Below are positions 44,371-54,153 of a stretch of DNA of 64,000 nt, in pieces; position 1 is the first letter of the stretch, and each line of letters begins with the position of its first letter. Position numbers and translations under genes: made by a program. The DNA lies in the NCBI GenBank assembly GCA_947303465.1, contig CAMYYI010000001.1, forward strand, positions 1 through 64,000, given 5' to 3'. This DNA comes from an uncultured Bacteroidales bacterium. Its GTDB lineage: Bacteria; Bacteroidota; Bacteroidia; Bacteroidales; UBA932. The notes beneath the pieces are model-generated. The model made no database searches and was not told where the DNA came from. It worked only from the letters and a program-made list of their open reading frames with translations.

Positions 44371-44393
44371 TCCCGGACACATAGATTAGCGTC

Positions 44394-44431
44394 GGCTGCG
44401 GTCCATTCAGTGGACCGCAGCCATCATTTTT
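44394..44431 (+). terminator. Hairpin terminator after the small membrane protein gene
   Basis: Perfect 12-bp arms GGCTGCGGTCCA and TGGACCGCAGCC with a 5-nt loop, followed by ATCATTTTTG. A second hairpin with GGTCCA...TGGACC arms lies at 44451-44466. Confidence 0.88.
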
Positions 44432-44510
44432 GCCCATTTTTGACGGTAGCGGTCCATCTTTTGGACCCCTGCCGACACTCCCATCACATTCTCTCCGCCG
44501 TAGTAGCGTC

Positions 44511-44666
44511 AGGCTGTCTCCTCAGGGGCCCGTGTCCACCCCGCAGGGCAGATGTCCCTCGGGGGACTACAGGGGGGGAATACGTCTCGTAGAGACGGGA
44601 GGGGCCCACAAGCGCAGTGCAGTGGGAGGGATGAGCGAAGAGAAGGCTTCCTGAGGAGAGCAGCCT
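44511..44666. repeat. Palindromic interspersed element (intergenic copy)
   Basis: Terminal arms 44511-44530 and 44645-44666 are imperfect inverted repeats (AGGCTG, then TCTCCTCAGG, shared). The core (about 44536-44646) matches, on the opposite strand, the core of the element inside the 53.3-kb gene: ACCCCGCAGGGCAGATGTCC, GGGGGACTACAGGGGG, GGGAGGGGCCCAC and GTGGGAGGGATGAGCGAAG. It carries no gene. It lies in the 478-nt gap between the small membrane protein gene and the PspC gene. Confidence 0.8.
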
Positions 44667-44740
44667 GCGCCCGGAGGCGGGAAAATGGCGACTAAAATTC
44701 TTGGTGCTGCAAAATATTTTAAAATTTTCTGTACTATGTA

Positions 44741-52596: not shown

Positions 52597-52720
52597 GTTA
52601 GTCGGCGACATTTTTGACCCCATAGTGTCGCCGACCAACTTATTTTTGGCGTGTCGGCGACATTTTTGACCCCATAGTGTCGCCGACTAACTTATTTTTG
52701 GCGTGTCGGCGACGTTTTGG
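52597..52720 (+). repeat. 52-bp tandem repeat of hairpins after the TolC-like gene
   Basis: Units start at 52601, 52653 and 52705 (the third is partial). Each full unit contains arms GTCGGCGACA and TGTCGCCGAC around TTTTTGACCCCATAG, then a TTATTTTTGGC stretch. The hairpin plus U-rich tail makes each a plausible terminator, duplicated in tandem. Pairing extends to 13 of 14 positions in the first unit. Confidence 0.82.
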
Positions 52721-52773: not shown

Positions 52774-54153
52774 ATGAGACTGTACACGCTGACTTCCGAC
52801 TTACATGGCGAACTTGCCCACAACGCTCATAACGAGCAGTTTATCAGGGATATAGAAGAGGCCATAGGAGAGACTTTCGATTACCGCGAGAGCGACTTCT
52901 CCGATTACGGCGCCGCGGGGGATGTGATATATGTGCGTACCGGCGGCACGGAGGGCATCTTCCGAGAGGTGTTTAAGGGCCATGAAGGCGCCCGCGTGAG
53001 GCTGCTGACCAGCGGCCAAAGCAATTCACTGGCCGCGTCCATGGAAATCCTGAGCTGGCTGAACCAGCAGGGCCTGGACGGCGAGATTATTCATGGTTCA
53101 GTGAAGGAAATTGCAAACGAGCTCATGAGATATTATCCGTCCAGTGTAAGGACTTCACCTTCTCTGATACGGCGTTTCTCCGGTCGTAAAGTCCTGGCAG
53201 GAAAGCGTTTCGGAGTCATTGGCAAACCGTCTGACTGGCTGATCAGCAGCAGTGTAGACTATGCCAAGGTCCGCAAGACCCTCGGCGCTGAGATCATAGA
53301 TATTCCGATGACGGAGCTCCTCAGCGCTGTAAAGGGCCAGGAGGCGTTGGGGGCGACAACCTTCGCTTCGCTCATCCCTCCCACGCCAGACGGCGTGGGC
53401 CTCTCCCATCTCTCCGAGATTTCGTTTCCCCCTGTAGTCCCCCAGGGGACATCTGCCCTTCGGGGTGGCCATGGGCGGCCACAGGTTGCTGCCCCCAATG
53501 CCTCCTGGCCATGTGCGCTGAAGGCACTGAACGAACCGAAATACGGCAAGTCGTTGACGGACAAGGATATGGAAGGGGCGCTGATAATCTATGCGGCGCT
53601 GAAGCAGCTAGTCGCAAAGTATCACCTGGACGGCTTTACGCTCCGTTGCTTCGACCTTCTGACCACCGTTCATAATACCGGCTGCCTCGCCCTTTCGCTT
53701 CTGAATTCTGAAGGCATCATAGCCACCTGCGAAGGCGACATCCCCGCCATGCTCTCAATGGCCATCACCCGCATCAAGTACGGAAAATCCGGCTTCCAGG
53801 TTAACCTTTCCCGCATTTCCGGCGGCAATTTCCTCTTCGCCCACTGCACCATACCTCTCGATATGGTCTCCGACTACTGCTACGACACCCATTTCGAGTC
53901 CGGCATAGGAGTAGCCATTCACGGCATACTGCCCGTAGGCCCCGCGCGCCTGTTCAAGCTCGGCGCCGACCTCGAGCACTGCATAGACGAGCGCGTGAAC
54001 ATCATAGACAACCCTTACGGAAACAATCTCTGCCGTACGCAGGTAGTAGTGCGCAGCTGGGCGGACAGGGACAAAGAGGTAGGAAAAGATGCCCTGCGCA
54101 ACTATATGCTGCACGAGCCCCTGGGCAATCATCACATTCTGATCACTCAGTAG
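52774..54153 (+). CDS. L-fucose/arabinose isomerase-like protein with in-frame palindromic insert
   Basis: 459 residues. N-terminal sugar-isomerase-like domain: YVRTGGTEGIF, LTSGQSNSLAASMEILSWLNQQG, GKRFGVIGKPSDWLI. C-terminal domain: FTLRCFDLLTTVHNTGCLALSLLNSEGIIATCEGDIPAML and NFLFAHCTIPLDM, which match the fucose-isomerase C-terminal fold (Glu/Asp metal ligands plausible in CEGDIP). Residues about 184-249 are encoded by a palindromic repeat (53322-53520) and read as low-complexity sequence (GATTFASLIPPTPDGVGLS...). The frame stays open through it, so the product is not truncated. No substrate is known for this uncharacterised family. The insert sits between the two domains. Confidence 0.8.
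   Translation: MRLYTLTSDLHGELAHNAHNEQFIRDIEEAIGETFDYRESDFSDYGAAGDVIYVRTGGTEGIFREVFKGHEGARVRLLTSGQSNSLAASMEILSWLNQQGLDGEIIHGSVKEIANELMRYYPSSVRTSPSLIRRFSGRKVLAGKRFGVIGKPSDWLISSSVDYAKVRKTLGAEIIDIPMTELLSAVKGQEALGATTFASLIPPTPDGVGLSHLSEISFPPVVPQGTSALRGGHGRPQVAAPNASWPCALKALNEPKYGKSLTDKDMEGALIIYAALKQLVAKYHLDGFTLRCFDLLTTVHNTGCLALSLLNSEGIIATCEGDIPAMLSMAITRIKYGKSGFQVNLSRISGGNFLFAHCTIPLDMVSDYCYDTHFESGIGVAIHGILPVGPARLFKLGADLEHCIDERVNIIDNPYGNNLCRTQVVVRSWADRDKEVGKDALRNYMLHEPLGNHHILITQ
53322..53520. repeat. Palindromic element inserted in frame in the isomerase-like gene
   Basis: Core terminal inverted repeats 53341-53361 and 53484-53504 match at 18 of 21 positions, are extended by GGCCAG/CTGGCC and, after a short unpaired stretch, by CAGCGC/GCGCTG, giving about 199 bp overall. 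The interior matches the 44.5-kb element on the opposite strand. It contributes about 55-66 residues to the host protein without a stop or frameshift, recalling the palindromic elements that insert in frame in Rickettsia genes. No transposase is present. Confidence 0.8.

Follow-up and report, generated by a model that had tools for sequence, protein, structure and literature searches.

A palindromic DNA element is present in many copies, chiefly in one Bacteroidales genus, and sits in frame in a wide range of unrelated housekeeping genes. Related species carry it in one or the other orientation between arms that match, and the probable cause is template switching by a polymerase at its hairpin. 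This is the explanation that we favor for a family of repeats recognized from a copy in a stretch of 64,000 nucleotides of an uncultured Bacteroidales genome, which is referred to here as the window. An outline of the proposed process is as follows: DNA polymerase would switch templates at the hairpin and copy one arm onto the other, so that the two arms could change together, or it would re-copy the core backwards, so that the core would flip. Selection would remove insertions that break a reading frame, and in-frame copies would be left in loops that tolerate a disordered insert. A further-reaching form of the same explanation is offered tentatively: the element might be a recombinase-free coding inverton, that is, a selfish palindrome that enters core genes in frame (among them those for DNA polymerase I, UvrA, TilS and Fmt), rebuilds the arms peculiar to it and is flipped again and again as replication switches templates, and dozens of housekeeping proteins in one genus would then carry inserted peptides read alternately from either strand.

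The focal element and its host gene

The features of the focal locus, and the second copy in the window, are as follows (window coordinates).

52774 to 54153, plus strand: host gene, 459-codon open reading frame for a fucose-isomerase-like protein, open across the insert
53322 to 53327, plus strand: outer inverted repeat CAGCGC
53335 to 53510, plus strand: palindromic element, long form with forward core, protein residues 188-246 (own-genome search; covariance-model match, E 1.3e-17)
53335 to 53362, plus strand: left arm, pairing at 25/28 positions with the right arm
53363 to 53482, plus strand: core, 120 bp between the arms, with the family boxes TTCGCTTCGCTCATCCCTCCCA .. GGGCCTCTCCC .. GGGCGGCCAC
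53483 to 53510, plus strand: right arm, 28 bp, partner of the left arm
53515 to 53520, plus strand: outer inverted repeat GCGCTG
44504 to 44671, minus strand: second copy in the window, intergenic, long form (covariance-model match, E 6.9e-15)

In this long form the focal element measures 176 bp. Its inverted repeats with the outer CAGCGC/GCGCTG pair, the host frame running uninterrupted across it, and the match of its interior, on the opposite strand, to the intergenic copy at 44.5 kb (82 nt, 83%) had been noticed in an earlier sequence-only reading of the window, and all of them were recovered. The gain of 55-66 residues that this reading had ascribed to the host protein proved too large: compared with orthologues lacking the insert in eight other genomes, its excess length is 129-157 nt in seven cases and 94 nt in one, which gives about 31-52 residues.

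The host protein had 7912 homologues at E ≤ 1e-30 among 8000 scored, and one of the 120 homologues listed (P0086) is named L-fucose isomerase-like by its source. No Pfam match was found at E ≤ 0.001 and no PDB sequence match at E ≤ 1. Named records containing the host gene are assigned to uncultured Bacteroidales or Bacteroidia, many of them ruminant-derived by title, and a Candidatus Cryptobacteroides record shows 48% identity; the present genus presumably belongs to that group. Other repeats lie close to both copies in the window. A REP-like palindrome, GTCGGCGACATTTTTGACCCC..GTGTCGCCGAC, is found in tandem copies immediately upstream of the host gene (52597-52704), and by eye like repeats flank an HUH-type gene in the sister genome G027 (L284); a REP-like palindrome pair, GTCGGCTGCGGTCC..GGACCGCAGCC, adjoins the copy at 44.5 kb (44387-44480), and by eye the same type occurs downstream of another HUH-type gene locus in G027 (L286).

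Homologues of the host gene were found in 59 of 101 genus genomes, and G027 is the only one, apart from the window's own genome, whose alignment runs unbroken across the insert. Filled and empty forms of nearly the same protein exist side by side: a filled protein of 439 aa (P0005) and an empty one of 407 aa (P0007) are identical at 399 of 407 aligned residues (98%), the empty P0030 and the filled P0018 at 396 of 405, and the empty P0010 and P0013, which is filled with a reversed core, at 394 of 406. Such near-identical homologues without the insert speak for the earlier view that the segment was inserted into the gene and is not a conserved part of its product. P0001 (417 aa) matches the window protein at 194/197 and 211/212 residues on the two sides and keeps the arm-encoded residues with most of the core missing, which could be a true deletion or a collapse in assembly. 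At the cleanest empty site, where CTAACT is directly followed by AAGAA, no target-site duplication was evident by eye; the other empty sites are more diverged.

Structure prediction of the host protein, made with 49 sequences, gave a mean pLDDT of 83. The sole segment of at least three residues with a pLDDT below 50 comprises residues 201-246, within the insert and between two well-predicted parts. The insert is thus predicted to be disordered, and it is expected, from its sequence, to be translated into the host protein.

A repeat family inside and outside genes

A search of the window's own genome (G000; 1.93 Mb in 56 contigs, 81% complete) with the 176 nt revealed 13 additional places bearing the core (16 matches minus the element and its two arms). 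A covariance model of 124 positions, built from 22 copies, gave at E ≤ 0.01, the E-values being rough, 34 matches in this genome, 48 in G027, 48 in G047 and 40 in G023. With 34-48 matches per genome the palindrome is multi-copy, and the length of the model lies within the size class of about 100-150 bp; the matches in the own genome bear out the claim that the element is an interspersed one. The genomes compared are mostly metagenome assemblies, one per species, and the comparison within species covers a few proteins. The family is present in 47 of 61 genomes of the same genus and in 1 of 40 others (E ≤ 0.001). An order-wide draw gave the element in 5 of 393 genomes, the own one included, and in 5 of 206 genera (E ≤ 1e-5); two further genomes of the genus in this draw gave no element at the same threshold. 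No earlier description of the element was found in the open-access literature searched, subscription papers being mostly outside its scope.

The four genomes together contain 170 model matches, of which 150 were listed, and 131 of these lie in fetched stretches with room at the ends. As had been anticipated from the focal copy, many in-frame copies lie in unrelated genes: among the 131, 57 are inside open reading frames (17 in the own genome, 18 in G027, 12 in G047 and 10 in G023), 66 are intergenic and 8 are at edges. A copy was called in-gene when it lay within one open frame called by codon usage, by a crude caller and with broken genes left out of the count, so that "in frame" is partly built into the number 57. 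Since the in-gene call requires an open frame, the length difference to a shorter orthologue was used as a second measure. It proved divisible by three in 19 of 21 in-gene copies (77 of 86 comparisons) as against 9 of 21 intergenic copies (12 of 26 comparisons), although a second copy is present in some of the shorter orthologues themselves. Each of the six core frames is in use: in the 56 copies with the motif, which omit one of the 57, the counts are 18, 9 and 3 for the forward frames and 17, 7 and 2 for the reverse ones.

The hosts in the own genome include, by family match, TrmB, TilS, TsaB, Fmt, a TrmH/RlmB-type methyltransferase and a NapH/NapG-like protein, and further a PcrA/UvrD helicase, UvrA, DNA polymerase I, a penicillin-binding protein, a MiaB-like radical SAM protein and an EamA transporter; those in relatives include AroB, DnaX, a KsgA-type methyltransferase and a PrmC-type methyltransferase. 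In-frame copies in so many unrelated genes, absent from near-identical homologues and from most orthologues, agree with the proposal of a Bacteroidales element that works like the palindromic elements of Rickettsia, and the earlier interpretation as a whole is partly supported. We also observed that Fmt with its insert shares one open frame of 852 aa with an LptF/LptG-like part (own genome, L151:7646-10201).

It had also been supposed that reading frames open on both strands may help the element to survive inside genes. The support for this is weak: cores flipped in silico leave the frame open in 40 of 53 in-gene copies (four of the 57 being omitted), compared with 893 of 1648 flips of control segments from these genes. 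A special openness of all six frames was rejected, as in-gene cores have 3.47 of six frames open and other windows of the same genes 3.53.

The same loop may hold different things in different genomes. An RlmI-like methyltransferase gene of the own genome (L142:9233-10375) holds two in-frame copies whose arms are different. Its loop 1 contains family-A copies with differing arms in G000, G047 and G011 (in another frame in G011). The loop is empty in G023, whereas G027, G048, G058 and G008 have other inserts there that look repeat-like by eye. As a separate observation, also by eye, at least three other repeat families occupy the same gene loops or sites (loop 1 of L081 in G027; L085; L091; L093; and the G027 site matching G047:C31:32005, L187); they include repeats with the peptides SILAAxQLRLSNA and SDSGGFGGNAPRE and an CAGAATGACA/TGTCATTCTGAG repeat (peptide HVILSEAKNL in P0014).

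Dispersed palindromes in genomes that also have Y1 HUH-type genes recall REP/REPIN repeats with their RAYT partners, and a repeat of this type moved by the REP-associated HUH (Y1) transposases of these genomes was considered. Weak Y1_Tnp matches are indeed present (4 in G000, one of them below the cut-off, 5 in G027 and 3 in G023; genus maximum 42 bits), and 9 of 15 fetched Y1_Tnp loci have ORFs of 284-362 aa bearing an MSNH[VI]H motif. As a rule, REPs border the gene for their transposase (PMC6006769). Here, in contrast, no convincing copy of the element lies within about 2.5 kb of the 15 loci (best 10.4 bits, E 0.24), several of the HUH-type genes are by eye flanked by other palindromes, and the element occurs inside genes as well as outside them. 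The overlap in occurrence is also loose: among 37 genus genomes covered by both searches, the element and Y1 occur together in 24, the element alone in 6, Y1 alone in 3 and neither in 4. The link to a REP transposase was rejected, as no copies adjoin the HUH-type genes at these loci, and we regard this origin as improbable. The ORFs with MSNHVH or MSNHIH (284-362 aa) are themselves found several per genome, some with flanking palindromes of their own (L280, L281, L282, L284-L287, L290, L291).

Arms, core orientation and core folding

The arms of the element are private to each site but self-complementary. A completeness filter left 29 distinct copies from loci L001-L049, in which the two arms of one copy align with a mean score of 19.1, whereas arms paired across copies score 6.0 ± 1.5 (maximum 12; 812 pairings). 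In a larger and looser set, a score of 30 or more is reached by 96 of 131 copies and by 77 of 1000 pairings across copies, the latter having core sequence in their windows. Terminal inverted repeats common to the copies, as in MITEs, were not found by these scores. The innermost arm bases are semi-conserved across copies. This point, and the fact that the Bacteroidales are rich in invertons, would suit a dedicated site-specific recombinase that flips the core as in classical phase-variable invertons. However, because the arms differ from copy to copy, little of a shared recombination site is left; no such shared sites were found in the inverted repeats, the arms being private apart from the semi-conserved innermost bases, and we consider a recombinase quite unlikely.

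Template switching, the explanation preferred here, would copy one arm onto the other, and the arms do partly change together between species. The 23 shared-site pairs whose arms are at least 60% alike comprise 572 arm columns. Of these, 343 are unchanged, 101 show changes on both sides that preserve pairing and 128 are changed without compensation; this count was made without gaps, so that indels count as unmatched columns. When the threshold is raised to 70%, the summed rows of the remaining 15 pairs give 30 compensated columns and 68 that are not. Since compensated changes are not more numerous than uncompensated ones, our confidence in the explanation is slightly lowered. The compensation is distinct in single pairs: pair 101/105 (flanks 87/88% alike) has 14 compensated arm columns and none unmatched, and in pair 111/114 (G047 and G023; flanks 94%) one genome has GGCCGGATG and the other ATTCTGTTA as a block of nine arm bases, and in both the partner arm fits.

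Mismatches between arms bear on the level at which pairing is kept. In-gene copies have, on the mRNA strand, 39 A.C and 36 G.T mismatches; RNA-level upkeep of the arms was rejected since this strand shows no G.U bias, which argues for upkeep at the DNA level. Relative to the strand on which the core runs forward, the mismatch classes differ in number (A.C 77, G.T 54, C.T 56, A.G 14), perhaps because the alignments extend into the core.

As to where the arms come from, inverted duplication of the target had been suggested by the P0030/P0031 versus P0018/P0020 alleles and by loop 1 of the RlmI-like gene, but it was rejected as a general source, both arms being nearly absent at the cleanest empty sites. 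Identical nucleotides number 0 on the left and 2 on the right of 29 at site #123, 2 and 0 of 25 at #88 and #89, and 0 and 0 of 27 at #92; the arms there are therefore new DNA and not duplicated target. Other sites share more (for instance #106, right 8/23; #61, 17 and 16 of 21-22), which is partly due to a different copy being present in the orthologue, and a host origin of some outer parts of the arms is possible. Copying of arms from elsewhere in the genome was likewise rejected: the one arm tested, from G047, was found, with up to 3 mismatches allowed, solely in its own element.

Between species the core is found inverted in place. This feature and the private arms had both been missed by the sequence-only reading. 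Fifty shared-site comparisons at 28 sites, which are not mutually independent and of which 11 are without a scorable arm on one side, gave the same core orientation in 26 cases and the opposite one in 24, and 16 of the 28 sites have at least one inverted pair. When the arms on both sides are at least 60% alike, which is a mild cut, 9 of 23 pairs are inverted (6 of 13 for G047 versus G023), and at 70% or more 6 of 15. The clearest case is G047:C31:27435 against G023:C6:37193, in which the flanks are 95/97% and the arms 96/100% alike and the core is inverted. Three intragenic inversions are in frame in both genomes compared, namely those in the focal gene, in TrmB (pair 14/29) and in a PUA-domain RNA methyltransferase (pair 32/40). 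The focal gene in G027 has the same arms around a shorter, reversed core, and relative to the own genome the inner tails of the arms are swapped along with it. The orientation calls rest on assemblies, and a graph collapsed at the arms might in principle place a core backwards.

Shared sites could instead be hot spots, at which separate insertions have occurred repeatedly in the same permissive loops, in either orientation and with new arms, nothing being flipped in place. In 16 of 39 scorable comparisons the arms are less than 60% alike, and 9 of these 16 are inverted, so that some of the "inversions" may be separate insertions. In the host protein itself, P0002 and P0003 are identical at 404 of 424 aligned residues and have opposite cores at this site with different arm-encoded residues, and the differing contents of loop 1 of the RlmI-like gene (copies with differing arms, other inserts or none, by genome) also favor hot spots. 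Against them stand the nine inverted pairs that retain alike arms, including the clearest case above, and the inner arm tails of the focal gene, which swap together with the core. We take hot spots to be a rather unlikely account of the shared sites taken together.

The core itself appears to fold. Its helices covary: 12 of 22 pairs have changes on both sides, with 43 such cells compared with 9.8 in shuffles; related sequences may exceed shuffles without any structure, and slid controls reach 7 cells at most. Two of the covarying helices, CCCGT/ACGGG and CGTGGCC/GGCCACG (alignment A1 columns 57-112), are interlocked, which suggests a pseudoknot and suggests that the folded single strand of the core matters, as RNA or as DNA. 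These covarying interlocked helices are left unexplained by a DNA-only model. In addition, an A.C that is frequent at columns 57/76 of alignment A1 would be a G.U on the reverse strand.

It is on these helices that one further alternative depends, namely that the insert is a structured RNA, self-splicing or bypassed by the ribosome, and is removed or skipped at the RNA level. However, open frames and lengths in multiples of three would be needless if the segment were skipped, the arm mismatches have no G.U preference on the mRNA strand, and inversion would put an RNA on the wrong strand. A known RNA family was rejected as well: no Rfam family is above threshold in the element at 10 loci searched at E ≤ 1, and the sole match touching it, Acido-Lenti-1, has 21 bits (threshold 37, E 0.95). 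Removal or skipping at the RNA level is, in our judgment, very improbable.

Comparison with known systems

Protein-coding palindromes are best known from Rickettsia and Wolbachia: the Rickettsia palindromic elements and their Wolbachia equivalents are described as hairpin-forming sequences of about 105-146 bp, found between genes and in frame within conserved protein genes (PMC2229807). By description, the present element is alike in being a hairpin palindrome that is both intergenic and in frame inside conserved genes. It differs in belonging to another phylum, in having arms that are private to each site and partly co-changing, and in having its core flipped between species. The Rickettsia elements are reported to lose the identity of their repeats (PMC6649704). 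The private, self-complementary arms and the core flipped in place go beyond these elements as they are known. In enterobacteria, intragenic small mobile sequences with open frames have been reported (PMC2759123).

Template switching between inverted repeats is described as homogenizing the arms and inverting the spacers, also in coding DNA (PMC8604942), and it can create and maintain hairpins (PMC8794818). Inversion of a spacer between kept arms is what is seen in the inverted pairs with alike arms. In yeast genes, spacer inversions gave substitutions of 2-5 bp, and long inversions in proteins were deemed unlikely to be neutral (PMC8604942), whereas the intragenic cores that differ in orientation here measure about 70-120 bp. 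Palindromes within translated genes are also found in nematomorph mitochondria, for which template switching has been proposed to explain concerted arms (PMC6649704); there both arms encode conserved regions of proteins, whereas the present element adds extra sequence that is predicted to be disordered.

Hairpin-loop inversions of 5-50 bp with flanking inverted repeats of 11-24 bp have been found by species comparison in chloroplasts (PMC2939885). Those small inversions are scattered single loci, whereas the present ones belong to a dispersed repeat family. Intragenic invertons, in which inversion within a coding sequence changes the protein, were reportedly described by Chanin and colleagues in 2024. 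Intragenic invertons are tied to recombinases acting on shared inverted repeats. Here, in contrast, the repeats differ from copy to copy, and the DNA that inverts is a dispersed repeat in housekeeping genes.

The family provides a further natural experiment beyond the intracellular Rickettsia and Wolbachia, in which inserts of several kinds have entered the same loops and in which alleles that are filled, empty or flipped exist next to one another. It makes testable the way in which selfish DNA turns into protein sequence, the upkeep of complementary hairpin arms without selection on RNA and the frequency with which inversions of 20-40 codons are tolerated in core enzymes.
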